From positions 248,001 through 312,000 of the forward strand of contig JASANH010001440.1 in assembly GCA_030248295.1 (NCBI GenBank): a DNA stretch of 64,000 nucleotides. The letters are read 5' to 3'. The translations under genes were made by a program, and so were the position numbers. Below are positions 7,304-37,359 of this stretch, in pieces. Position 1 is the first letter of the stretch. Every line of letters starts with the position of its first letter. Origin of the DNA: Mesodorylaimus sp. YZB2_4 (taxonomy: Eukaryota > Nematoda > Enoplea > Dorylaimida > Dorylaimidae). The notes beneath the pieces were generated by a model, which saw nothing but the letters and a program-made list of their open reading frames with translations, was not told where the DNA came from and did no database searches.

Positions 7304-8355
7304 ATGATGGCTGCGGTAGATCGTCGTACTCCAATATTGTTTCTTCAAATTTCAATGCTTTTGCTTGATTTATCAATCAATATCGCCGCCACCCTCTTGT
7401 ACTGGCACAACACCGTTCTACTCATGCTTTATGTGTAAGTACAGTACGCGGTGTCCGCAAAACTGTCATGAGTAAGTTATGGGTCCCCAAGTCATCGTGT
7501 TTTTACCTGCCATATCATGGACTGCAAAAGGGTCTATTACTAATAATGCTTAGAAAGAATTTTTGGTAGAGCCGACCAAAAGGCGCGAAAGTGTGACTTT
7601 TAAAGTTTGCCAGAATCGGAAGCTTTAAAATACGACTTTTTTGGCACTGACTATGACGTGAAGCATAATTTTCAGTCAGTTTCTGTGCTCAAAAATTCGA
7701 TATCTCGTAGATAAGACTCCTTTGAAACGACACGCCTTCTAGTTGAACCCTCATAGTCCCTTTATATTTTCACACACCACCTCTGGGTTGGTTTTGTAAG
7801 TCTGTGACCCAATCTAATGTGCCAATAATTCATCGCCAGAAAACAGACTCACCCAGGTCTATTATTATCTGCTAAATTTTAGAATCCAAGACACGTGCAC
7901 GGTGATGGCCCTGATAATTATGTTCCTCACATTCTTCTCGACCTACGTGTTTCAAGCTGGCCTCATCTCCGTCTTGGTCGCTCGCTTTCAAGTAACCTTG
8001 TACGCTTCCGCCATCTACTTGGCCTTTTCCATCGCATATCACGTTTGGAGCTTGGTGAGCTACATTCTACTGTGGATACTTTTCAAAAGATTAAGAGATG
8101 CATTTTTACGTTTAGAAAATACGATGGGGTCGTCCATACGACGATGTTTGGACAGCTGGGCTGGTTGCAATCTATGTCATACAGAGGACAAGTAAGACTT
8201 TAAATAACAAAATAAAGCTTATGAAGCAGTTTTTCCTGGCATTAGGTGCCATCCTGTATTATTATTTCTATAAACGCACAGCACTGATGCTCGGCGACCC
8301 GCGGTATCACCAAGATTCTCCTTGGCTTCGAAAACAAATTGCACAAAAACAATAG
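7304..8355 (+). CDS. TMEM138: TMEM138 ciliary transition-zone membrane protein
   Basis: Four exons (7304..7434, 7883..8054, 8116..8191, 8246..8355) join with matching phases 2, 0 and 1 into 162 aa, the same length as human TMEM138. Diagnostic stretches follow the vertebrate order: FLQISMLLLDL (helix 1), VIQDTCTV, FVFQAGLI-type STYVFQAGLISVL, SIAYHVW, then RW......VWTAGL, and the C-terminus YYYFYKRTAL.LGDP...QDS.WLRK. Four hydrophobic helices are visible. The family localises to the ciliary transition zone and takes part in ciliary gating with TMEM216-type proteins (established for vertebrates). Two ATGs in tandem open the frame; the first is used. Polyadenylation signal at 8478. No TMEM216 gene is seen beside it, unlike the vertebrate arrangement. 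Confidence 0.93.
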
Positions 8356-8477: not shown

Positions 8478-8483
8478 AATAAA
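8478..8483 (+). terminator. Polyadenylation signal of TMEM138
   Basis: AATAAA about 120 nt after the TMEM138 stop codon at 8355. Confidence 0.6.
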
Positions 8484-8595: not shown

Positions 8596-9061
8596 CATGC
8601 TGGAAAATCGCTTAAAAATGCAGTAAGCTCATCACAGATCGTGTAGCTGCCAGAGACATGGCTTTGTTCTGAAATTCATGCAGTCGCACTTTAATCCGCG
8701 ATTTCGTTAATGTCAGATTCTTGTTCAAATGCGACAGCGGCAGGTTTTTCGATCATTTCTGATGGACGGCCTGCGTGATGATGCGGTCCATGTTGACGGT
8801 GTTGGTGCACTAGAACCCGATGGTGCCTTATTGCATGCTGAAAAAGTGCAAGATTTCGTTAAAACAACAATCCATTTTGATACGATCCAGATCTCCCCTG
8901 GCCGCTTTGTGCTATAACGTGCATCTGCGCAAACATTTTCTGATGGATCACGCAAGTCAACCTTACGTGTTTTTCTGTTTTTCCATTCTACTCCTATACG
9001 TATATTTTGCACGAACGTACCCCTTCTGCACTGGTTAAAAACAAGAAAAGCTGCCTCCTGT

Positions 9062-9610
9062 TTAATGCAACCTCCGCACAATCTTTTTTCTCAAAGATTT
9101 TTTGGAGGTATTTCTAGAACATGTCCGTACCTGCGACTTGTGTGGACTGAGGACGATAGATTCAAGCAAATTCCATTGTTCATCGCTCTTTGGCGCTCCG
9201 TTTTGGGCGTTGTCATTGGTCAGTTCGTTTGGCAAATCAGTACTCGATGTCAGAACGTTGGTGTGACAAAACGATTTCAACGTGACGTAGCTGCACTGAG
9301 ATATGCAACAACGTTCCAACAGAGTTTGGCCATTTTCCCCAGAAAATGTGGATACTACACAGAAAAGAAAAACAAAAACAAACATGATACATTGCATTCA
9401 CCTCACACTTGGTTTCTTTTTTAGAAATATATGCAAACTAGAAAAATTATTGAACTTACCCGGACCATCATATCCGACTTCATCCCTGCACAAATGAATC
9501 ATCATGGTAATCAACTTCCGACCGCATAATCTTAAAACAGCACTGGACTCCAACGGAGGGGTCAATACCACGAAGAGTATGGCGGCAGATAACATTAGTT
9601 TCCCCCACAT
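9062..9610 (-). CDS. Insulin/IGF-family peptide, IGF-like single-chain form
   Basis: Exon 1 (9610..9460) and exon 2 (9354..9062) join in phase 1, the conserved insulin-gene intron phase, to give 147 aa. Residues 1-24 form a signal peptide. The B-like region has C29 and C41 in LCGRKLITMMIHLC, with exactly 11 residues between them and the family's CG start. The A-like region has CCISQC at 66-71 and C80, giving the insulin CC-x3-C-x8-C pattern. Only 24 residues separate C41 and C66. They contain no dibasic site, so B and A may stay joined as in IGFs. After H81 comes a 66-residue extension ending in a basic stretch (KKSLRKKIVRR), comparable in position to an IGF E-domain. It would be secreted and act on an insulin-type receptor tyrosine kinase (family knowledge). 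The donor is GTAAGT and the acceptor follows a T-rich tract. Confidence 0.85.
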
Positions 9611-12425
9611 CGTAGCTCGAACAGTTTCCTAAAACTTAGATAAAAACAATGGGTTGATCTGTTTATGCCCTAAATAATTTCTCGAGCGCGCTCCAGTTTT
9701 AGACAAGGTATGTAAAAATTGATCTGGTTTACTCAGATAAATACAAGTAAAAATATCTTCGCACTGCATAGACAATTTAGCGCGTCGCAAGTTGGTATGT
9801 TCCAGATGAGTTGGTGAAAGAGGAGTGAGCTTCGAGCGTGCGCATCCGAGTTATATAGGCGATAAATACGGACCCGACGAAAATACAAAGTACATGCTTT
9901 GTCGTCAGTCATCGCAAGTCTCCTTATCGGGCGGACGTCAGCATACTCAAAATACCTTTCTATCTCCATCTGCCACGAGAACAAACCTTCACGTGGAAAG
10001 CATGCCCTCACAAGTCCTAGGATTTTATGCTTGTCGTAAACAGAAAACGACAAAAACACTCTTGTCTTAACAAGGTCATTTTTTATGAGGCTCGTCTCAG
10101 CTTATTGAGGAAGTTTACAAAGAAGGAACTTTGAGCGAAAAACACCTCTTTTCTTCGGTGAACGAAAACAAATTAAATAGATTTGTGAGATAATGACGAA
10201 GAAGGAAGTACAGTGAAGGATTGGCGAGTGCCCAAAAAGGAGTTATTAAGGGACAGAAGCTGTAGAAACCCCTTTTAGAAGCTAGGTGAGGTTTCTCGAC
10301 CGAGCAGTCGATAAACAAAGGCAGGAAGTTGAATCTGGCACCTGCGATTTCGTGCAAGGGAACGTGCAACCTTCGGCCTCAGAATCGAATTTGCCCTCTG
10401 GCAGTTACCTATACCTCAAGCTTATCCTCCATCTCACCTTACTCGTGATGAAAAAATGTTATTAACGAATTCAAGGCAGGGAACAGCTGATGAAACGAGC
10501 TGCCAAGTCAGTCAAGGTTGATAAGTATAAAAAGCCAGCCAAGTTTTCAACTTCCGTTTTGCAAATAGACTTGGCCCGACCCAGCCAAAGTCTGTCTATA
10601 AACGTCATAGAATAGCCAAAATAGGGTCATCACTTTCCACAAAAAATTTGACAATATTCCCAGTCCTTCAACTTAAATAAATCATTCACGAGGGTACCAG
10701 CAGGTCACGATAACAAGCGGACGTCAAACTCGGTCAAGCGACAAAGTAGCAGTGTGTATAGAACAGGAATTCAAACTGTCTGAGCCACCCGCCCTGCGCA
10801 TCCAAAGACTGAACACTACTGAAAGAAATCAGCTCTTGAAATCAACCTTCTGTCTTGTTTCTGACGTCGTCTGATGAGTTGTCTGGGCGTCAAGAATTTA
10901 ACGAACGACGTGTGTGCGGTGCTTTTGTAAGTTAAAAGAACGATGCGTTCTATGTTTCCACTTCAAATCTCAGCGTTGTTTGCGAAATTTCAGTTATTTA
11001 CGAATTTTCTCCATAGTCTACGTGTTTGTGTCTCTGCCGCATTATTCTCATAGTTCAGTAAAGGCTTTGTAGCTGTTAACGCCCACTCTGTGAAGCATCT
11101 ATTTCGGCAACATGGCTACGTGTCGACGCCGAATTATCTTCATGTACTTGACGATGACTGCGTTTACACTTCGCCTTCGTTGGCCTCGATGTTTACCATT
11201 TTTTGATGCCTGAGCCGACAATAAGTGTGAAAACATTTTTGAAAAGGGCAACTAGCCGTACGCTTTTAAAATTTGAACGAAAATATCTGCAAGAATCAGA
11301 ACGAAACATGACTTTCTTCAAAGTTGTTGATCTGCTGGAGAGCGTCCAAAAATAGCTGAATTTGATTTGCAAAAGTGCACCCAGGATTTTGTTAGCAATA
11401 TTTTGAAAGAATGCCTCCATAAAGTCATATAATACTGTATGTTTGCCCTAGTTCCGGGAATCAAGTTAGCCACAGTCCCCGGAAGTATCAATTTTTTTTG
11501 GGAAAACCTATTTTTACTATTATCAAGTTGTCACAGGTTTAGCTTGCATGCAGTACAGAAATCTGGTCATGACAAAATGCATGGCTAATTTAAATTCCTG
11601 TATACTGATACTCATACTGTTGTGACGTTTGATATTCTACATACGCGAAGGTGACGGTGGATCCAAGGTCTCCTATAGTCCAAAGCCAGGTAGAAAGGCT
11701 TATCCGCCAGAGTATCGCTAAGACACTGATTCCTAAGCACCCCTCAGGCGTGTGTTCCGCGCCTCCCTGGTGTGCCTGTGACTGCTCTCTTAAATGATAC
11801 CCACGCTGGCGGGCAGTTCCACTGTCTGATGGAGCAGTAAAGACCCAAGCCAAGACCAGAGGATCCATTTGGAGCGCAGCAGTACACGACCATGTCTCAG
11901 CAGTCCTACCTACTGTAGATCTTACCCACAGACAACAAAGCACGTGTCTTGGAGTCAACTCCTAGACGCTTCCAGAATGAACCAAACAGACGACGACGGC
12001 AGATGCCCCTTGGAAATATGCTGATTGAAGACCCTGCCTGGCGCTTGGCCCACATTGCCTCAGCCAAATGGGCTGGACAAATGTATAAGGGTGGGCCCAC
12101 AAGAGTTTAGAACCAGCTGAAGTCGAATCGAGAGAGCCAGAGCAAGGAAGAGTCCCAATCTCACCCAGGATTCTGCTCTTATACCGCCTTGGCTCCTCCC
12201 CACCGAGCCAACTGCCATAGCCACACCATACGAACTCCAGGTGCCCTCAAGCGGAAAATGTCGCAACAACTTTACTTTTGAAAGTGTGCGTGTGTGTCTG
12301 TGCACTGGCTTGTGAGTGTGTCAAATGACATACGCACTAATAAAAAGATGGAAAACAAAATGTGTCAAATAAAACAGAATTAGTAGTAAGCCAATCAATT
12401 AAAGCTAGAGCACAGTCCAAAAAAG
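9611..12425. other. Gene-poor spacer between insulin-like gene and bestrophin cluster
   Basis: No recognised gene. The longest frames (for example 9733..10059 and 10115..10369, minus) show no domain or splice support. Around 11640-12110 both strands are open. A plus-strand stretch after an ACCCACAG acceptor at about 11932 reads NEPNRRRRQMPLGNMLIEDP in a frame that closes near 12108. It might be an exon or a decayed transposon, but I cannot assign it. Confidence 0.4.
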
Positions 12426-14100
12426 TTAAAAGAAGTTTACGGGTTTATTAATTCTATTCATTCTATCCATCAGGCACTGAGTGTCTTCTTTATCACAAAA
12501 AATTTCCTCTTGCACTTGCTTCTGAACCACTCCTTCCAATTCGATCGCTGATCGCATTCTAGGCGGGTGATTTGGTGCTTTTGTAGCCGCAACACTGTAC
12601 GTCAAATTGTTTAGCATTTTCTGGCCCATTTCTTGTCGCTGGCTCTCATCGACGATAACATCAGGCATTTCTTCTCTTACGCTTGTGGCCAGACTGAAAG
12701 CGACTGCTGCATTTCGATCGAGAATCCAGTTCAGTTCGATATCGTCGTCGTCCTCGCCCCAAGGATGCATCAGATCACGAGCCACAGCGAACCAGCCCAC
12801 GAAGAAAATAAACTGGAGGATTGAAAGCCAGGGCACATAGAGGTCAACTGCCTTGCCAATGTATTGATGACCGAGCAGAGCGAATGCGAAATAGCCGTAC
12901 ACAACGATAGCCACTGTTTGAGTGTAGACCAAGGGTACATTGATCCAGTCATAGCTGAAAGTAGAAAGGTCAGAATTCAGACGACTTTTATCCGCCTACA
13001 TTTTGTTTTTCAGCTTAACGTATAACTCTTTAAATATCCCCAGTCACTGATCGATCCCAAGGGGTTCAAAGACCGAGAAATTCAAATTTACAGACAGGCG
13101 CATTGACCAACGGGAAAAAACCAAACCAAATGAGCTATCTGTGTTATGCTTCTTTGTGAGCTAGACCTTGCCAATATTTTGCCAAAATAAACTAACGATA
13201 AGCCGAGCTAGAGGTAAGACGCAGCACAAAAGAGTCAGTAGTGAAAAATCGTGCGCCCAAATCCCAGCCAAAGTACTTATTATAAGCCTGCTTATGCACC
13301 TTCGGCTCCGTCTACGTAGGAGCCGACGTCCACGAATAACAGGACACACAGGAATGGCGTGAAAGAAATCGATTTACCAGTGTGGAGTATGGGGTAGGGG
13401 GTCCTTCGTCAACAGAGCAGTCTCATTCAGCAAAACGATTTCCCATTGGCAAACAAACTTACGTGAATAAGTGTTGCATTTTCGTTCGAAATGAATTGAC
13501 GCTATTGATGAAAGCAATTTTGAAATTTGGTGGGGCCTGGCAGGGAAGTATGATCTTATTCACGATCCAATCTAAAGGCATTTGCCACTGCACATTTTGG
13601 CACGGTGCACGTTTTACAAGCATAAGCTCTTGTTCAGTGATCAGGCCAGCAGATATAAGGTGATCAAGTTCTGGAAATCGCTTATAAATTCTTGGCGATA
13701 ATTGCCTAAGAACCATACTTTGAGATAGAATTAGCCACCGGGCCACATTTTCACGGATCGCCCTGATATTTTCGCCATCAATCAAGGACGAATTGGCCTG
13801 AACCATGACTTCATCCGGCCACGGCACTGACACGATTTGCTGCCACCATCTCGATACAACTTGACCAACATAAAAACCGAGAATAAAAACCAACGGAAGA
13901 CTACCGCAAAATTTATCAAACAAACTAACTACATGACCAGCATTCTTTTGTTGGTCGGATGTCAACCCGAAGGTGAGCAGAAAATAAATAGCGTACCAAA
14001 GAATAATCCAGATCAGTAAGTGTTTCCATACACATTTCCAAACACTGCCCTTCCAACGGCTCAATAGGAAAAGAGCTTCAGTGGAATAATGGATGGTCAT
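12426..14100 (-). CDS. Bestrophin-family anion channel (paralogue 1)
   Basis: Exon 1 (14100..13463) and exon 2 (12954..12426) join in phase 2 to give 388 aa. The start MTIHYSTEAL matches the invariant bestrophin N-terminus. The channel neck is SLPLVFILGFYV, keeping the F80/F84 equivalents with Leu for human Ile76. RWW, YKRFPELDHLISAG and YDWINVPLVYTQ are present. The acidic calcium clasp reads GEDDDDIELNWILDRN. Bestrophins form pentameric, often calcium-gated chloride channels in the plasma membrane. The long variable C-terminal tail of vertebrate forms is absent; the protein ends in NKPVNFF. Of the three genes this is the most divergent, with a clasp segment (WGEDDDD) closer to the vertebrate one than the other two. 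A paralogue follows upstream on the same strand. Confidence 0.93.
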
Positions 14101-15778
14101 GTACGTAGTACAAATTTTTTGTCGGACAGTTCAGCGTTTATACAAGGCACGGACACTTTCCACGCCGCCTTCTTGCTGTCGTTGCTCCGGCGACAGCTGA
14201 GAGGTGTTGCGAAGGACGCGTTCGAGGTATGTACATGGTTGTCCAGTCGTGGAGGGAAAATCAATACATGCTCCGGTAATGAAAACAAGCTGGCGCTTTT
14301 ACCTTGTGTAGTGATTCATAGTAAACAGTATGAGCCACGCTGTGATGACCACAACCACGCGATCCCTTCGGGGCGACTGTCCAATCGCCAGCACCAATCC
14401 AATATATGAGATGTCAGCCCCACGCACGTGCTGTGCCCCCGTCCGAAACTAAGTGTGACAATAGCGCGCCAGGAGCCCGGGGCTGCACAATAATGCTGTA
14501 CACTGAGGTCGTCGACAGGTTGCAAATTTTCCATAATTAGACATTACTGCTTTTGCTCTTTCTCTACGATGGTCCTTACCGCTCGAGCTATAGGTCCCTG
14601 CTGTGCTCAGGCTTAGGCTTAGGCTGAAGGTAGACTTCGGCTTGGGCTTAGGCTCCCTCTGGGCGGCCTTGTGCGGGTTCGCAAGATTTTGGTTAGTCGT
14701 GGCACTTCGCAACCTCGGATACGAGACATTCGCTGAATCGTGACACAATCGTGTGGTAAACACTTTGCTGATGACCTGCAAGAGGTGCGCCGCCTTTTAA
14801 AACGCGATTTTTTTAGAGTCGTTTTTCCACAATTTCGAAACAGGTCATTGTAATTGACACTAGAGATTGCCTCAGTTGGGAACCTTTTCCTTTGCTTTGT
14901 GTGTTTGTTGTGGGTGCACCGTGCCTTGTTGATTGGTACCCTCGTCAGTGTTGCGCCTGCACGCGTCTAGTGCGGTCGGAGTAAAAGATCTATCTACAAG
15001 ACGTGTGGTCTTATAGCACCCCTTCGAATAATCTTACAATTAGTACTCGTATCTTTAAATAATTCATGATTTGACATGCAATCAGAGCCCGCTAGGATTT
15101 GCCGCAGAGGCTTTCCAGACCCCTTTGCATTTACTAGTGATTATGTTTCCTATTAAAGTTTGTCCACTAAGTTGGCCTATGATTCAGCTTCTGACAAAGG
15201 ACTATGCAAGATGTGGTGCAGAAGCAGAGCTTGCAGTTAAGAAAATTATGCATATACAGCTAAGCCTAAATATATCACAGGTGGCTTAAAACCATTTTCG
15301 TACTGGCCGCCGCCACAACCAGTGCCTGCCGTTAATTGCACCAATTCACCCCACATCGGCTGCACCGATCATTCCATGCATTTGCTGGTATGCTCACCTT
15401 TCGCTGAAACCCATCCATGGAAAGCTGCATGTTTTGTGTCCATGGCAGTAACAACTCGAAACACTATGCTGCATCTCTATATACTCGGACACTCGTATTT
15501 CGCAGCACATGGGCATCGTAGGGGCTGGGCCGAATCATACTCGTAGAGTATATTATCAGTCGAGGCCGAGGTGGCGGGTCTTATTCGAGAGTGATAACAT
15601 TACTATAAATCATAATTACCAAGTGGAAAACAAGCTACAGTACTTTCAACTCGAGGGCACACCAGTCTGCTCTACTCTGACAACAATCATAGCATACAAC
15701 CTGAAAGAGTCGATGCAGTCTGCGTAAAATACAGGTGACGTGCATTTCTAGGTCGTTTTGCGCTTTTGTGAACGTGAT
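14101..15778. other. Spacer between bestrophins 1 and 2
   Basis: This should contain the promoter of bestrophin 1 and the 3' UTR of bestrophin 2. A short stretch with repeated GGCTTAGGCT units lies at about 14608-14655. No further coding region could be supported. Confidence 0.45.
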
Positions 15779-17801
15779 TTAGAACTGATTATATGGTGCA
15801 TAACTTCCGAAAGCTTTCTTCAATCTGATGGTGAGACTGTTCTTCGAGGCCGCCACTCTAGGGATGCATTTCACTTGCACTTGATCACCTTGTTTCATTT
15901 TCGAATATGAACGCATTTTCGGCGGATGATTTCTGAATCTGGTAGATGCAACGCTGTAGGTCAAGTTGCTCATGAGTCTTTGTCTTATTTCTTGGCGCTG
16001 GACTCCGTCGATGACGACGTCGGGAGGATGTTCGCGTACATCCGAGGCCAAAGTGAAGGCGACGGCCGCGTTTCGATCCAGGATCCAGTTGAGTTCGATG
16101 TCGTCGTCATCCTCGTCCCAAGGACGCATCAGGTCGCGAGCAACGTTAAACCATCCAATGAAAAATAGAAATTGCAAGATTGACAGCCAGGGGGCATATA
16201 GATCGATGGATTTGCCTTGATACTGGTGACCGATCAGGGCGAATAAGAAATAACCATAGACCACGATAGCCACGGTTTGAGTGTATACCAAGGGGATGTT
16301 GACCCAATCGTACCTAAAAACCTTTAGTCTTAATATTTCTTCATGTAAATACACAGTATTTGGCAGATCATCCCCCCCCGTACTGTACAGTATATACCAT
16401 CAGACTGATCTCTAAGAAACCAAAGAGTTTTACTACGCCCAAGTAATGATCGTCTCTGACACTGTACGACAATGTTGCTGCTTCAGGTATGGAATTGCGA
16501 TAGAGTAACAGATCGAAGGTCCAATTCAAGCGTCCGAGAGTAAACTTTACTGTCGCTGAGATTAATATTAAGACCAAGGCAGAGCCTATAAGCCCGTTTT
16601 TTTAGTTTTCTCTTTCCCCTTGGACTTTTACAAAAACTGCACGGCCAATGTACTGTCTTCTTTTTCTCTTGTACTCTTCACATTCAAGTATTCTACCCGC
16701 CCCCCCCCCCAACCTTTGTCATCTCCCTGTTGCATTTCATGTCTCCTTGCGAATGTGTTTCCCAAAGTTAAAAATTCTCGTCTTCCTCTTTGAAGGCCAT
16801 CGCACCTCTTCATCACGCCTTCACACCACGCCACAGGCTATCACACCTTTTATGGGCAAGGTTGTCTGTGTCATTTTTTCCATATTTTCTCTAGTATCAG
16901 CCCCTCGAATCTACGCCGCTAATTTCAGTTGTCTCCCCTCTTTGCCCCCCCCCCCCAACATCACGTGCAAGAAGCAAGGAAATTTTGCATCCATCATGAA
17001 AAAGTCTCCCTCAAATGTGTCCCTTCCGGAGGGCAATAAAGCTTTATCTCCTCCAGTATGGTCGTCATTGCTTCTTTTTCATGTTTCCCCTGAACGCATC
17101 GCCTTTTTAATGCAAAATATGGGCATTAGTAGGCGGATATAGGCCAATAAAGATTATACTTACATAAACATTTCTTGAACTTTATGTCTGAATGAATTTA
17201 CACTGTTTATGAAGACTGCTTTCAGAGGCCCTGGCGCCGAAGATGGGTAAATAGCTTTGCTGACTATCCAATCCAAAGGCATTTGCCAATGCACATTTTC
17301 GCACGAAATGGATGTGATCAGTGCAAGTTCTTGGCTGGTCATCAATCCTGCTGTCACCAAGTGATCCAGTTTGGGGAATCTTTTGTAAATCCTGGCCGAC
17401 ATTCGTCTTAGTGCCATGGCCTGCGACAAGACCACCCATCTGGCAACTGACTCACGAATGGGTTTTTCATGATCGCCCTCTGCCAAACATAAATTAGCAT
17501 GTGCAACTACGTCTTCGGGCCAGGGTATGGCCATGACTTGATTCCACCATCTGCTAACAACTTGACCAACGTAAAAACCGAGAATAAAGAAAAGCGGCAA
17601 ATCTTTGCAAAATTTTTCAAATGTTGCAACGATTTCTGTAATCGACTTCTGATAAGCCTCATTTACACCCAATTTAAGAATGAAGTAAATAAAGTACCAA
17701 ATCAGGAGCCATATTAGAAGTTGTTTCCAAACTGTTTTCCATACGCTTCCCCACCACCGACTCATAAGTAGCACGGCCATCGTAGAATAATTGATGGTCA
17801 T
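15779..17801 (-). CDS. Bestrophin-family anion channel (paralogue 2)
   Basis: Exon 1 (17801..17164, 638 nt) and exon 2 (16313..15779, 535 nt) join in phase 2 for 390 aa. Visible landmarks are MTINYSTMAV at the start, the neck L68/F72/F76 in DLPLFFILGFYV, RWWNQ at 84-88, KRFPKLDHLVTAG at 140-152, YDWVNIPLVYTQ just after the splice, and the calcium clasp WDEDDDD at 278-284 followed by ELNWILDRN. Four membrane helices fit the family's fold. It is a short bestrophin lacking a regulatory C-terminal tail. The intron contains two poly-C tracts (near 16696 and 16947). Exon lengths, intron phase and donor are identical to paralogue 3, and flanking DNA is shared too. Confidence 0.95.
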
Positions 17802-20167
17802 CTTGGATTTTCTTGCTTACAAAAGCGGAAATAGCAGATTCAATCGGCTATGCAGCAGATGAAAAAGAATACGATCACTTAAACAGGAGTTTTGTGCTCA
17901 AGTTCGACAGCTCAAGTCACAATCGATGTAATATTTTGAGGTCAAAAAAAATACCCCTGAACTGCTGGCCTATGTAAAAACGAAGATGGTGTTTGGCGGT
18001 CGTTCTGTCGCAAAATTCCGACACTTTTGTGAACAAAATTGAAGGCGCTTACAGTATGTACAAGGCTGGCCAACCAGTCTTCATAATTTCACTGTGCCGG
18101 GCCAAGTTTGGGCAGAAGGTAATTATTTGAGGAACTAGACAGGGAATAAAAGGAATGCTTACTCAATGTTGATCGCATCGATGAATACACGTAGTTCAAT
18201 GCTAGCATTGATCGTCATCTCTAAAAATTTTTATGAAAAAGAAGACGAGCAGACTAGTACGAGTATTTTGCAGAATCTGAGGTTCACAATGCATGGGTGT
18301 GTTGTATTTTGTGCAGCACGTTACAGTCTTCTCTCGACCTGTTTTTTTGAATTATGTTGCGCACTCGATACCCGTCTGCTGATGGTGTTAAAATGGAAAG
18401 ATGGGACAAAGTGAAACTTTCCTGTGACGCCTATTTCGGCAACATTGAACATGATTGTTCTCGTTGCAAAACAAGCCGACGATATTTCCCCGCATGGCAT
18501 TGACAGTTTCCGAATATAGATATCAACTCATTGCTGTCAACACCGCTCGACACCTTACTAGTGGAAATTTCGGCAGGTATTTTGCCACCCGAACTCGTTG
18601 CTTTCGCCACTCTCAACTTAACCTCAGTTTGTATTCATCAAACGGAAATTTCATGTGTGCAGAATAACTAACAATTCGATCTTCTCCGATATTTGAGAAT
18701 GCTCTAGCTTCTCCTGTGCTTATTGTACAATACTCTGGTGACTTCTCTTGTCTGTCACAGCCTAAAAGATGATTTGATTTTCGAGCCCTCAAAACCTTTC
18801 TCTAAATGTTATCACTGGAAAAGAGCTGGACTCACGACCGTATCCATGGTCTTTTCCAGCAGGGGCTAGCCTGCTTATCGAGAGCATATGCTTTACTTGT
18901 ATCCTTTTAAGTAATACTTAAAGGTACATAGCCATGCTGACAGTGAGAGCAAGAACAACACAAACGCGACTGCGGTGGTGCAGCGGCTCGGCATTTGTCT
19001 CTTGCTTGGGAGCGAGTGGCTGGACTCGTCTTGGGTTCGATCCCCGGTGACGGAGGTCGGTTTTCGAAACATAAACCCTCGCTGAAATTGCATGCCAGGC
19101 GTGCAATTTGTGCCTCAGCCACTGCCGTCGAGGCTCTCAGAGTGGAGAGACGGAAGCCAAACGAGTATACAGTCTCGGCTGTCCAACACCGACAGGGTTC
19201 ACGGCCCGCCCGCCATCGTCTGAGAAAGTCGGTGTTCAGTCCAGGATGTCCTCGCGTGAAGGTGCTCCTCGTGGAGACACGCAGAGGGAAGCTGCTCTGT
19301 GTGCGGGGTCCCCGTACAGCCCTGCTCAGAAGGTTTGCATGCATGCTGGCGAGGGGAAAACGGGCTACGACCCAAAAAAATTTTAAAAAAAGAACTACAC
19401 AAACAACAGATTATTTGTAGAGCAAATTCTTAAACAGTGGCCATTGTTTGTAATATTGTTGAGCATGAGCAGCCGCAGGGTTGCCCAGCCTGTAAGCTAG
19501 TCCGCACGGGAATGTCTTGAAAAATGAGGAGATAGATCGTAGTCTGATGTGCAAACTGTTCGGTCAGTCGGCAGGACTGACGGTTGGCGCAAAGCCCCGC
19601 AGTCACACGGGGGCTGTAGGGGCCTGGGGTAAGCGTGTGTTCGCGAAAAAGCGAGTCGGGCGATAAACAGTGCTCATGCATGAACCAACATTCAGTGCAT
19701 TGATCAGCGCAATGGGGTTCGGCCACTGTTCAAGGTCCCAAGAGCCATGGCAATCCCAAAATAAAAAACTGCTTAGCGCGTTCGCACAGGCATTCGTGCT
19801 GCTTCACCAAACCCTCCCTTCCAATAAGTGTCAACAAGCATGGGCTGGTCAGTCGCCTCCCTACCGGCTAGGGTCCAAATCAAACTCTTGTCTTTTCTTT
19901 GCTTTCAAGAAAGGAAAATATCATATCCACTTGCGCTCTTTTAGGATGAGGGCTTTTTTTGATGCGGCGCAATATTACAGCTCTAGAGCGAACTATTCTG
20001 GTTCATTCTGGCATCAATCTATGACATGCAGCCTGATTACACCGTTCTGCCTGCGGTATTTTATGTCACTCAAAGCATTGCATTTGCAGTCTATACAGAA
20101 GATCCTAATAAGGATCGTCAGAGTAATTTTGCGTTCTAGTCCAATCCGTAGCAGAACTGACTCACGA
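17802..20167. other. Duplication flank, SINE and spacer between bestrophins 2 and 3
   Basis: From 17802 to about 18610 the DNA is the upstream part of the duplicated unit. A complete SINE occupies 18966..19390. The rest, to 20167, shows no convincing gene. The plus-strand frame 19670..20293 overlaps the end of bestrophin 3 and is a shadow. Confidence 0.5.
18966..19390 (+). repeat. Complete tRNA-derived SINE (family A)
   Basis: The head carries an RNA polymerase III A-box-like GGTGGTGCAGCGG and a B box GGTTCGATCCCC, followed by a body of about 300 bp and an A-rich end. It is flanked by an imperfect 14-bp target-site duplication, AGAACAACACAAAC at 18952 and AGAACTACACAAAC at 19391. A second complete copy sits at 60686 in the opposite orientation. 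Confidence 0.88.
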
Positions 20168-22443
20168 TCAGAACTGATTATATGGCGCATAACTACCAAA
20201 TGCCTTCTTCAATCTGATGGTAAGACTGCTCTTCGACGGAGTCACTCTATGAGGGCGTTTCACTTGCACTTGATCCCCTTGACTCATTATTGAATATGAA
20301 CGCATTTTCGGCGGATGATTTCTAAAACTGGTAGACGCCACGCTGTAGGTCAAGTTGCTCATGAGTCTTTGCCTGATTTCTAGACGCTGAGCTTCGTCGA
20401 CGACGACGTCTGGGCATTGCTCGTGTACATCTGAGGCCAAGCTGAAGGCGACGGCCGCGTTTCGATCCAGGATCCAGTTGAGTTCGATGTCGTCGTCATC
20501 CTCGTCCCAAGGACGCATCAGGTCGCGAGCGACATTGAACCATCCAACGAAAAACAGGAATTGCAAGATTGACAGCCAGGGGGCATATAGATCGATGGAT
20601 TTGCCTTGATACTGGTGACCGATCAGGGCGAATAAGAAATAACCATAGACCACGATAGCCACAGTCTGGGTGTATACTAAGGGAATGCTGACCCAATCGT
20701 ACCTGAAATACAAATTTTTGAGGTTTTTGTACATTTCCATAAAGATACAAAATGTTAGTTGTACAGTCGACATCTTCTATCTGCACCTCCGGTAACAAAA
20801 ACTGGGATAACTAAGAGCTTTAGGTATCATCCTACCCTTAAATCCCTTTCTTAAAAAGCTAGGCTGCGTGAGGATTCAGCATCATATGAGATACGCCAGC
20901 AGGTCATTCACTTTTTGGTTGGGCACGAGCATCACATTTTTCTAAATTAGCTTGGAACAATCATTGCCTTTTCAGAGTATCGAAGCTAAGAATGCTGTCC
21001 AGACTCTATGCTGCACTGCGTGCCATGTGTGACTGACGATGAGTTAATACACCGGAGAATACACCGACAGAACTTCGCTCAGGCCAAACCAACTTTGTCT
21101 TGGTTTTACCAAATGTCAGAGCGCATAACTAGAAACCGGAAACTCGTCTGACGATGTTCACCGCAGAAACTTTGATTTGGACTGTCACAATTTAACAAAA
21201 ATGTTTTGGCCCGAACGAAAAGCTGTCGGTGCATCTCGACTGGAATGTCAATGACTTTCAGAAATGAGAGAAGGCCAAATTTTCAAATAATTTGATCGTG
21301 TATGGCAATGTCGCGAATACAGTACACTAATGCCAAAAATTTTAATCCCCGAGGTAAAAGTGGGAAATTATGGGCATGTCCTCATCTGGCGAGACAAAAC
21401 ATGTCAGACATTCCAAACTCCGCTTACTACAAAGCCTCTCTAGATGCACTGTTATGCGTTTGAAGTCCATCAAGCCAATTATCCACCAATTCTTTTGCCA
21501 AGGGCTGTTGTCTAATGTTTTCTCTGTATCTCTTCTAGTGTCTTACCTCGAACCTGCCCAACGCCAACTCGAGTTATGCCTCCTCCCAAAGTCATGTGTT
21601 TTCAAAAGGCACAAAACATTTTGTGGCCTGTTTCAAAAATGGTCTCTCTAAAGTAAGCTTCCTTCCGGAAGGAAATAAAATTTTTATCTGACCATAGAAT
21701 ATGCTAATATTGTTTATTTTTATGTTCCCCCTGAACGCATCGTCTTTTGTCACGCAAAGTTCGACATTAGTGGGCAGATATCAGGCCATAAAGATGTATA
21801 CTTACATAAACATTTCTTGAATTTTATGTCTGAATGCATTAACGCTGCCGATAAAGGCACCTTTCAGAGGCCCTGGTGCTGGAGCTGGGTAAATAGCTTT
21901 GCTGACGATCCAATCCAAAGGCATTTGCCAATGCACATTTTCGCAAGGGATAGAAGTAATCAGCGCAAGTTCTTGGCTGGTCATCAATCCTGCTGTCACC
22001 AAGTGATCCAGTTTGGGGAATCTTTTGTAAATCCTGGCCGACATTCGTCTTAGTGCCATGGCCTGCGACAGGACAAGCCATCTGGCTACTGACTCACGAA
22101 CGGGTTTGAGATGATCCCCCTCGAACAAGCATAGATTAGCGTGTTCAACAACGTCTTCGGGCCAGGGTATAGCCATGACTTGGTGCCACCATCTGGTCAC
22201 TACTTGACCGACGTAGAAACCGAGAATGAAGAAAAGAGGCAAATCTTTGCAAAATTTTTCAAACGTAGCCACCATTTCTGCAGCCGCCTTCTGCTGGTTC
22301 TCGCTGACACCAAATTTTAGAACGATGTAAATAAAGTACCAAATTAGGAGCCATATTAGCAGCTGTCTCCACACCGTTTTCCATACGCTCCCTCTCCACC
22401 TGCTCAGAAGCAGTACGGCCATCGTAGAGTAAGTTATAGTCAT
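20168..22443 (-). CDS. Bestrophin-family anion channel (paralogue 3)
   Basis: Exon 1 (22443..21806) and exon 2 (20702..20168) have exactly the lengths of paralogue 2 (638 and 535 nt) and the same phase-2 join, giving 390 aa. The start is the MTITYSTMAV methionine, which matches the family start; the frame extends upstream to 22566, but that extension has no bestrophin character. The neck DLPLFFILGFYV, the segment TRWWHQ, KRFPKLDHLVTAG, YDWVSIPLVYTQ and the clasp WDEDDDDIELNWILDRN are all intact. It should form a chloride-type channel, perhaps co-assembling with paralogue 2 (inference). Nearly all differences from paralogue 2 are conservative, so both copies look functional. Confidence 0.95.
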
Positions 22444-22566
22444 GGCTGGACTTTTTTCTGGTCTCAGAATCAGAACAATTAGTTGGATAGGTAGAGGAGA
22501 AGATGCGCCAAAACACAGTTTTTTTGAATATCTGGTTCTGCGATTGCTGTAATATATCGTGGACAA

Positions 22567-23354
22567 TGGAGGTTTTTAAAAAAAATATAGCTCGTGACCA
22601 GAATCGAAAGCAGTAGTTGACGTTATAGTTTCGTCGCGAAATTTCGATAGTCTGTTAAAATAAAATTGAATGCGTATATAGTGCCAAGCCGCTATCAAAC
22701 CTGTCGCTGCAATCGCACATGGATGGCCCGAAACTCGGGTGAGTAATTATTTCGGGAACTGGAAAAAGAATAATATGATGTTGATCAGGTCCGCGAAAAT
22801 TCGTTCCAATGCAAGCAGAAATCGCTAGCCCTAAAAATTTTATGTGAAGAACAGACCGACATGCCAGTGCGAGTATTATGCAGAATTTGTGGCCATGAAT
22901 GCATGGGTGTGTTGTATTTAGCGAACATGTTTTAGTTCTCTCTCGACCTGTTTTTCGAATTGTGCGCACTCGACACCAGTCTGCTGATGGTGCTAGGATG
23001 GAACGCAGAGAAGTAGTAAACTTTTCTCTGATGGTTACTTACCTAGTTTGGTAACGCGTGAAAATGTTTTGCCTCGTTGTGAAACAAGTCGGCGAGGTTT
23101 ACCGCATAGCGTCAAGAGTTCCCAAGCGCAGAAACATAGTCATTATTAGTAGACACTCATTAGTAAGGAAAGTGTGAAATTGAGATCAGCGAAGGAATGA
23201 CTTTTAATGACACAAGTATTCATGAAATTACTACGACTACAGCAAAGTGTAGGTTACATTCGTGATTTGATGCAAAAGAACAGCAACCTCGTCATATCGC
23301 AGGTTCCGCGTGTCAGTGAGGTTCACTTTCTGAGGTTATGATACACTACTGTAT
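22567..23354. other. Upstream flank of bestrophin 3
   Basis: Non-coding as far as I can see. Up to about 23150 it matches the 5' flank of bestrophin 2 and probably includes the shared promoter. Confidence 0.5.
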
Positions 23355-26587: not shown

Positions 26588-27071
26588 ATGTCGAATTTCC
26601 TAATTGATGCGGTCGTATTTGGAATGCGTAAGTATGCTGGTAATTCTTTTAAGCGCATCTAACAAAGCATCCTACATATGCTTAGTGGCCTCTGCCGCTG
26701 GTGCACCTCTCCAGATAAGTTCGATTCAACTCATTCGTCCAGAAAACGGGACGACTTTGTTCACCAGAACAGAATACTCATTCGAATGGTCGGAAGTAGA
26801 AGATGCTTACAACTACTACTTTCGTATCGTTGGTATAGACGACATCGTGGACGAGCAAATTATTTCTGCAGGCGGGAACCAAGTGAAAGCAGTTTACACT
26901 TTTGATTCTCCTTCCGATGATAAGCCATACCTGTGGGCTGTCGAGGCCTGGGACGAAAATGGTGACGTCATTGCCGCATCCCCGCCCAACTTTATTAAGG
27001 TCACTTGCCTGGTCACCACCAAGGCACCTAAGACGACAACTGAAGAGGAGCCAATTTTCGAATACCTGTGA
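26588..27071 (+). CDS. Secreted FN3-like single-domain protein
   Basis: Exons 26588..26627 and 26686..27071 join in phase 1 (donor GTAAGT, acceptor GCTTAG) to 141 aa. Exon 1 plus the join encode a hydrophobic leader MSNFLIDAVVFGMLASAAG. The rest is one beta-sandwich domain with the pattern IQLIRPENG, YSFEWSEVEDAYNYYFRIVG, PYLWAVEAWDENGDV. This is the same arrangement as in the 950 gene (P-E/A-N-N/G, F-W, Y-x-Y/L-x-I, W-x-V-x-A-x-D-x-N-G). A Thr-rich tail of about 20 residues closes the protein; it is much shorter than the mucin-like tail of the 950 gene. Polyadenylation signal at 27111. The first upstream ATG in the long frame (26604) is inside exon 1 out of frame and is not used. Confidence 0.7.
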
Positions 27072-36618: not shown

Positions 36619-37272
36619 TCAATGACACAGCGATGGTGACCAAGATGGAGAAAGGCGATGCGGCCATTTCCGGCAAAAAGGAACAGGAAAACAAAGCCAA
36701 ACGAGGACATTGCAAAATGAGCAGGCCAGTGCGCTATACAGCAGAGCTAGGCCAAGTTCCTTGAGACATGAGGGAAAAAGTTCCGATGGGCAGATGGAAG
36801 CAGGCACGCCAGCACAAAAATGAAACCTGCTAAGCACCTTGGCAGCCACCCAAGCGAATCGACTGAGGTAGACAGGCCAGCTTGCATAGTGCATAGTCCA
36901 TTGCGCACCCTGATCGCACACTTCTCTGTACCCACTCTTCAAACCCAAACATTCATGGCAGCTTGCAATGTATGGCTTACCGCAGTCCTTGTATCGCAAT
37001 CGTGTAACCTCGCGCTTCCTTCGGCCACTCGCCATCGACCTGTTGCCGCCATTTGCTTCCTTCGACTCACCGTCCTGAATGCCCAAAGCCTGAACCCGAT
37101 CAAATATCGATCTGATCAAATCACTTTGCACTTCATCCGAAATCGATGATCCTCGCTGGACGCTCTTAGAGATCGGTGAGGCTCGAACGTTCGTTTTCGA
37201 AATCAGAAGCAGAATAAAAGCAAATATAAAAAACGAGCAACTGATCAATCGATTCATGGCGATCAAATTCAT
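36619..37272 (-). CDS. Secreted Cys-containing precursor with furin-like site
   Basis: The ATG at 37272 overlaps the TAA of an upstream reading frame. A second ATG at 37257 gives a cleaner start. Either way a strong signal peptide follows (SCSFFIFAFILLLIS). About 60 residues of acidic/polar propeptide lead to GRRKR, a furin-type cleavage motif, then a Cys-rich stretch KDCGKPYIASCHECLGL...REVCDQG. This layout is that of a processed secreted peptide, growth factor or neuropeptide precursor. The known-family match is missing. The last third of the open frame (after about residue 135) looks less coding-like, and a splice donor may occur shortly after VCDQ, so the true C-terminus is uncertain. Confidence 0.48.
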   Translation of the reverse strand: MNLIAMNRLISCSFFIFAFILLLISKTNVRASPISKSVQRGSSISDEVQSDLIRSIFDRVQALGIQDGESKEANGGNRSMASGRRKREVTRLRYKDCGKPYIASCHECLGLKSGYREVCDQGAQWTMHYASWPVYLSRFAWVAAKVLSRFHFCAGVPASICPSELFPSCLKELGLALLYSALACSFCNVLVWLCFPVPFCRKWPHRLSPSWSPSLCH

Positions 37273-37359
37273 TATGGCTCAAATTCCTGATAAAAATCGA
37301 TAGGACCCGCAATTTTCGAATTGTCCACGAATGGCCAGTTTTCTTGTCGAATGGTCACT
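37272..37359 (-). CDS. Terminal exon of an unknown gene, stop overlapping the next ATG
   Basis: After an ACTCTTTGCAG-type acceptor (exon begins 37359, phase 2), 28 residues run to a TAA: VTIRQENWPFVDNSKIAGPI then DFYQEFEP. The TAA and the ATG of the secreted precursor share an A (TAATG). The upstream exons must lie beyond 37360, but I could not identify them. The peptide looks coding and not random, but the family is unknown. Confidence 0.35.

Follow-up and report, generated by a model that had tools for sequence, protein, structure and literature searches.

In Caenorhabditis elegans, the beta group of insulin-like peptides (ILPs; INS-2 to INS-9 and DAF-28) loses its F peptide and stays an integral B-A chain, 30 further ILPs are also integral B-A chains for which processing is unlikely to be needed, and INS-1 and INS-18 of the alpha group, with a B-C-A order, are cut at basic sites present at both ends of C (as outlined in PMC3978837). 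Arthropod insulin-like growth factors (aIGF, the group of DILP6 and BIGFLP) carry a C-terminal tail encoded by extra exons, have alternative ends, and possess a donor behind the A chain whose oversight is a known trap (in the account of these genes in PMC7357564). Here, we describe an insulin-family gene in the nematode Mesodorylaimus sp. YZB2_4 (assembly GCA_030248295.1), found in a 64,000-nucleotide stretch of contig JASANH010001440.1 (positions 248,001 to 312,000, hereafter the window). The gene occupies positions 9062-9610 of the minus strand, in two exons (9610..9460 and 9354..9062), and is probably functional in this nematode, encoding a secreted hormone of the insulin/IGF family made as one B-C-A chain with a C-terminal extension. 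Its main features are the following:

9460..9610, minus strand: coding exon 1, with the signal peptide, the B chain and the first part of the C link, ending in phase 1
9539-9610, minus strand: putative signal peptide, judged by eye
9488..9526, minus strand: B-chain cysteine block CGRKLITMMIHLC (CG-x10-C)
9355..9459, minus strand: intron 1, 105 nt, phase 1, GTAAGT..TGTGTAG, interrupting a Val codon
9355..9408, minus strand: alternative intron 1, 54 nt, donor 9408, second-best total splice score (9.55)
9062..9354, minus strand: coding exon 2 by read-through to the TAA at 9064-9062, with the rest of the C link, the A chain and the extension
9266..9310, minus strand: A-chain cysteine block CCISQCSYVTLKSFC (CC-x3-C-x8-C)

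Exon 1 reads MWGKLMLSAAILFVVLTPPLESSA followed by VLRLCGRKLITMMIHLCRDEVGYDGP, separated at the signal-peptide boundary that we set by eye, and a stop codon stands in frame 21 nt 5' of its ATG. Exon 2 reads STFSGENGQTLLERCCISQCSYVTLKSFC and then continues into a 67-residue tail. By scanning the window in six frames for the two cysteine blocks, we found one A block, nine B blocks and exactly one ordered pair no more than 600 nt apart. The mean over fifteen windows simulated from dinucleotide frequencies was 0.13 A blocks and 4.73 B blocks, and none of them contained a pair; a six-cysteine B/A pair is not expected by chance. The intron between the two blocks has strong sites: on the plus strand of the window, used as the splice-site background, only 0.06% of GT sites outscore its donor and 0.08% of AG sites its acceptor (generic consensus score). 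A phase-1 intron in the C domain is a trait of insulin genes (as described in PMC8286064), and seven of the seven testable paralogue models in this genome have one too. Hence, both the insulin-family precursor and the phase-1 intron proposed in an initial annotation of this DNA hold, the former by its cysteine spacing, its intron, the absence of chance pairs and the existence of paralogues.

Profile and structure matches support this identification, although the Insulin score counts against it. The match to the Pfam family Insulin (PF00049) had an E-value of 2e-4, but its 22.7 bits were 0.3 bits short of the 23-bit cut-off, and a genome-wide exon-by-exon scan with the same profile returned three other genes but not this one. 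The nematode family Ins_beta (PF03488) matched over profile positions 2-46 of 48, covering both B and A, with an E-value of 4.6e-4 and 20.6 bits for a cut-off of 21. In a phmmer search against solved structures, IGF-II chains ranked first (E = 5.5e-4). Because the PF00049 score is just under its cut-off, membership of the superfamily rests on the cysteines, the intron and the paralogues, which together point to a real gene of the insulin/IGF/relaxin superfamily.

The link between the chains is what gives this precursor its single-chain aspect. In the best splice model, 24 residues separate the B and A cysteines, with neither a K/R pair nor an R-x-x-R motif, as initially annotated. By listing all in-frame, stop-free GT..AG joins of at least 30 nt between the two cysteine blocks, we obtained four, of which the 9459/9354 join had the highest total score (13.23) and created no basic pair. 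This is very probably the true join of the chains.

To place this gene among its relatives, we used PF00049, PF03488 and two protein sequences as queries against the assembly (1067 contigs, 145 Mb). Nine insulin genes could be read: the window gene and paralogues on contigs 7, 76, 56, 128 (two genes) and 1 (three genes). This number is a lower bound, with a weak candidate on contig 755 (E = 0.18) and weak PF03488 matches on contigs 573, 34 and 9 (E = 0.77-6.8) left out. In all seven paralogues whose B exon is in view, the intron of the best splice model is in phase 1, the contig-76 donor being weak; the count leaves out the eighth paralogue, on contig 128 at 98.7 kb. All eight paralogues have a basic motif ahead of the A chain, namely RQKR, RNKR, TRRS (two genes), RVRR, RFRR, RQPR on contig 7 (which lacks a K/R pair) and RRPR on contig 56 (10 residues away from the A block), and the window gene is the only one of the nine that lacks such a motif. 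An extra cysteine is present on the B side as well as on the A side in six paralogues: those of contigs 76 and 56, the contig-128 gene at 89.5 kb and the three of contig 1. In the second contig-128 gene the A-side extra cysteine is seen and the B exon is out of view. Only the window gene and the contig-7 gene are limited to the six core cysteines. The latter, at 272.5 kb, has a 29-residue link that includes its RQPR and a 47-residue tail; in the three others measured, the B-A gaps are 73, 74 and 96 residues. Over a 36-position core, the window gene is identical to the four paralogues compared at 17-19 positions and to IGF-II at 11 of 34. Among the insulin matches listed genome-wide, none other falls on contig 15, which holds the window gene. 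The two genes of contig 128, at 89.5 and 98.7 kb, are about 9 kb apart; both are of the basic-site type, and they form a local tandem pair.

Next to the link, the C-terminal tail sets this gene apart. Its parts, the candidate exons beyond it and the nearby signals are the following:

9131..9265, minus strand: extension part 1, a D/E-like domain of 45 residues, acidic, no cysteine
9065..9130, minus strand: extension part 2, VRTCSRNTSKKSLRKKIVRRLH, 22 basic residues with a seventh cysteine, beginning exactly at a donor
9031..9130, minus strand: candidate intron 2a, 100 nt, phase 0, CAG/GTACGG..TTAACCAG
8725..9030, minus strand: candidate exon 3a, CRRGTFV...RKTCRCRI, 101 residues, stop at 8727-8725, open in phase 0
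8838..9130, minus strand: candidate intron 2b, 293 nt, phase 0, acceptor TGCACTTTTTCAG
8691..8837, minus strand: candidate exon 3b, HAIRHHR...ESDINEIAD, 48 residues, stop at 8693-8691, open in phase 0
9061..9066, minus strand: ATTAAA, a possible poly-A signal overlapping the read-through stop; pattern given no weight
8690..8695, minus strand: ATTAAA, a possible poly-A signal at the end of candidate exons 3a/3b; pattern given no weight
9852..9857, minus strand: TATA-like box upstream of the gene; pattern match only, given no weight

By read-through the tail measures 67 residues in the window gene and 47 in the contig-7 gene, compared with 4-17 in the other seven. The initial annotation described a basic extension of 66 residues, which has to be revised: the first 45 of the 67 residues hold two K+R and six D+E, and only the last 22, with nine K+R and no D+E, are basic. 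The change of composition coincides exactly with a phase-0 splice donor at 9130 (CAG/GTACGG, score 5.54), 66 nt before the stop. Since this strong donor precedes it, the basic end of the tail may be intron. Two good acceptors lie 3' of the donor, at 9030 and 8837, each open in phase 0, and for candidate intron 2a the donor and the acceptor are in the top 1.0% and 0.5%, respectively, of the plus-strand background sites. Donors scoring at least 5.5 between the A chain and the stop were found in two of the nine insulin genes, which are the two long-tailed ones, and both are in phase 0; the contig-7 donor (CAG/GTGTGT, score 6.77) lies 60 nt before its stop. Both tails hold one cysteine, just past the phase-0 donor. 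In comparison, 14,037 nt of homology-defined coding sequence contained six donors of at least 5.53, none of them in phase 0, and no donor of at least 6.76. On balance, these sequence features favor the use of donor 9130.

Several observations weigh against a spliced tail. The contrast between the two long-tailed genes and the others is helped by length, as their tails offer 246 and 186 nt against 57-96 nt in the other seven, and donors of this strength occur in the window at 0.65 per kb and strand (both strands), which gives an expectation of about 0.16 over 246 nt. Codon use is convincing in neither candidate third exon: exon 3a and the 22 basic codons are not coding-like and exon 3b is ambiguous. 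Because the certain A chain also scores as non-coding in this weak test, we let it count only slightly against exon 3a and the basic end. Moreover, the tail had no significant similarity to the frames downstream of the contig-7 paralogue. A candidate contig-7 tail homologue picked by eye ranked 190th of 8315 frames (score 31), and the best-scoring frame (48), also at the contig-7 locus, was rejected as well, an unrelated frame reaching 46. A DNA search of 8690-9130 across the genome returned the self-match only, and both candidate tails matched no Pfam family at E up to 1.

Two other ways of splicing this gene would change its product. If the true intron 1 were the 54-nt one, one V would be replaced by GKFNNFSSLHIFLKKKPI, placing FLKKKPI between B and A, and the link of what would be a convertase-processed insulin could be cut wholly or partly. 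This KKK weighs against an uncut link, and so does intron length: 54 nt fits better than 105 nt because short introns are usual in this genome (of 16 introns modelled in kinase genes, two of them poorly, 11 measure 54-75 nt, and five of seven paralogue splice models have introns of 52-61 nt). The 9408 join is also in-frame and stop-free, with a donor score (3.78) within the range of modelled donors in this genome. However, it would leave a consensus GTAAGT donor (7.45) unused 51 nt upstream, which speaks strongly against it, and its total score is 9.55 compared with 13.23. A KKK followed by P is a poor convertase site, and no second site stands beside the A chain. We therefore regard a convertase-processed product as decidedly unlikely. 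The dibasic site that had been named as fatal to an uncut link thus appears in the second-best join and not in the best one, and the single-chain hormone suggested at first is plausible, with no cleavage motif in the best splice model and a KKK in the second. The gene could also consist of two exons only, with a 67-residue tail ending in ...KKSLRKKIVRRLH and a free seventh cysteine (RTCSRN), which might allow glycosaminoglycan binding, as with the basic ends of growth factors, or the pairing of two molecules. The frame is indeed open to the TAA, with an ATTAAA on the stop, and an odd number of cysteines has a precedent in a decapod relaxin with seven (reported in PMC7357564). Yet the strong phase-0 donor at the exact change of composition, likewise present in the contig-7 paralogue, the overlooked donor already known as a trap in arthropod IGFs and, weakly, the codon use of the basic end all argue against this product, which seems somewhat unlikely. 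Of the initial count of six cysteines, the insulin spacing stands while the read-through product has seven.

Whether the IGF-like layout reflects descent is a distinct question. With a probably uncut link of IGF length and an extension behind the A chain, a trait of the bilaterian IGF group (67 residues when read through, 45 of them ahead of the donor), the resemblance in layout is real, and this part of the initially proposed IGF-type architecture is supported. The fixed 66-residue basic tail is not supported, nor is IGF orthology. With vertebrate IGF-II, the gene shares the distance between B and A cysteines (24, hand-counted), the extension and, probably, the single chain, but IGF-II has an RR in its link and a tail of other sequence. 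With arthropod IGFs, it shares the tail, the easily missed donor and the potential for alternative ends, but we could see here neither their GTVxPx(F/Y) end nor their Arg-rich two-cysteine block. It could be truly orthologous to the bilaterian IGF branch (arthropod and ambulacrarian IGFs), kept here and unrecognised or lost in C. elegans, as the best matches among solved structures being IGF-II would suggest. Against this, the core is nearer to the four local paralogues than to IGF-II, the missing arthropod motifs count as well, and loss and read-through can yield a six-cysteine core with a tail. In some arthropod genomes, IGF adjoins relaxin and gonadulin genes, a neighborhood not required in all species (following PMC7357564); the six-frame scan of the window found no second A block, and hence no relaxin or gonadulin neighbor of that pattern. 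Such orthology is unlikely, the resemblance to the bilaterian IGF branch being one of layout. Alternatively, the gene might encode a beta-type (INS-6-like) single-chain peptide, given that the Ins_beta match spans B and A and that a single-chain layout is usual in that group (PMC3978837). Like the C. elegans ILPs it comes from a nematode and would carry B and A on one mature chain, but it differs from them by having six core cysteines only, a 24-residue link, an extension of at least 45 residues and no F-peptide site. Indeed, there is no K/R pair before precursor position 31 and no RxxR anywhere in the precursor, and an F-peptide site of the K/R-pair kind is missing because no such pair lies ahead of the B chain. 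Beta-type ILPs have an additional cysteine pair, which the window gene lacks; together with its long tail and an Ins_beta score below the cut-off, this makes a beta-type peptide doubtful. INS-1 and INS-18 share the B-C-A order and the paralogues resemble them in layout, whereas the window gene in its best model has none of the basic sites at which they are cut.

Taken as a gene for a single-chain hormone with an extension, the locus suggests the following sequence of events. The signal peptide would take the precursor into the secretory path, where it would fold with the three standard insulin disulfides and, as the best splice model has no convertase site between the two chains, be exported as a single uncut B-C-A chain carrying the C-terminal D/E-like extension. 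In at least some transcripts, splicing at donor 9130 would probably add a further exon at the 3' end, the basic end with its unpaired seventh cysteine being then an alternative (retained) end or never made. The receptor of the hormone may be an insulin/IGF-type tyrosine kinase of the worm itself, of the DAF-2 type. A receptor-kinase gene of this kind is present: exons on contig 68, joined by eye, matched IGF1R best (E = 5.5e-59), and insulin-receptor-like L-domain exons lie on contigs 68 and 63. Receptors with L domains on contigs 3 and 119 look EGFR-like by eye. With L domains on contigs 63 and 68, the kinase of contig 68 and a listed kinase hit on contig 63, there are at least two insulin-receptor-like loci here, whereas C. 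elegans has one such receptor gene, DAF-2 (as stated in PMC4741068).

The host genome contains 133 matches to the nematode cuticle-collagen N domain (E up to 0.001, genome-wide) and a eukaryotic 18S gene, and the invertebrate mitochondrial code applies to its best COX1 copy. The collagen domains speak for a nematode and against a tardigrade, and the 18S gene resembles that of nematodes, perhaps of clade I/Enoplea. No copy of the canonical SL1 sequence was present in the genome with up to one mismatch allowed. COX1 gave 15 matches on contigs 73, 273, 741, 47 and 56, both copies and fragments, several of them within long contigs, with contig 73 carrying them in both orientations; these are either nuclear copies of mitochondrial DNA or misassembly.

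Around the insulin gene, the window holds several other features. A TMEM138-like gene at 7818-8355 (plus strand) is convergent with it (Pfam E = 1.3e-17 on 7818-8192, with a further exon to about 8355 by eye), and its AATAAA at 8478 (plus strand) suggests a bound for the 3' end of the insulin gene. On the minus strand, 12429-22575 carries an array of bestrophin-type chloride channels in three tandem copies of at least two exons each, both exons of one copy being confirmed by Pfam and the other copies read by eye. Also on the minus strand, a frame at 36622-37278 resembles the precursor of a cysteine-bearing peptide: its start is signal-like and a GRRKR cleavage motif precedes YKDCGKPYIASCHECLGLKSGYREVC, but it has no Pfam match. 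Finally, 981-1976 and 26604-27068 (both plus strand) encode secreted-looking proteins, Ig/Fn3-like by eye and with no Pfam family over the cut-off, the first one containing a 42-nt tandem repeat at 1725-1848.

The single-chain architecture had been annotated as uncommon among protostomes. This rarity was overstated, because the host is a nematode and the ILPs of C. elegans are mostly classed as integral B-A chains (PMC3978837). The less usual feature is the tail and not the single chain. Within the open-licence literature, we recognised no paper on nematode ILPs with an IGF-like tail from its title or the start of its abstract, and a 2016 paper on the dauer pathway called for a genome-wide survey of ILPs in nematodes outside Caenorhabditis (PMC4924289). 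With a basic motif before the A chain in eight of the nine genes read, the balance of ILPs in this worm is unlike that of C. elegans. Should the tail intron prove real, an IGF-like gene structure as reported for arthropods and ambulacrarians would exist in nematodes, which would bear on whether the single-chain peptides of C. elegans are a derived loss or an old state. More speculatively, and with a low likelihood in our view, an IGF branch with a single-chain core, a tail and a phase-0 tail intron, represented by the window and contig-7 genes, may survive beside eight-cysteine insulins, with splice choice setting the product. The choice between 9459 and 9408 would then toggle the link between an uncuttable and a KKK-bearing form, donor 9130 would toggle the tail, and the bilaterian split between IGF and insulin would be readable within nematodes.
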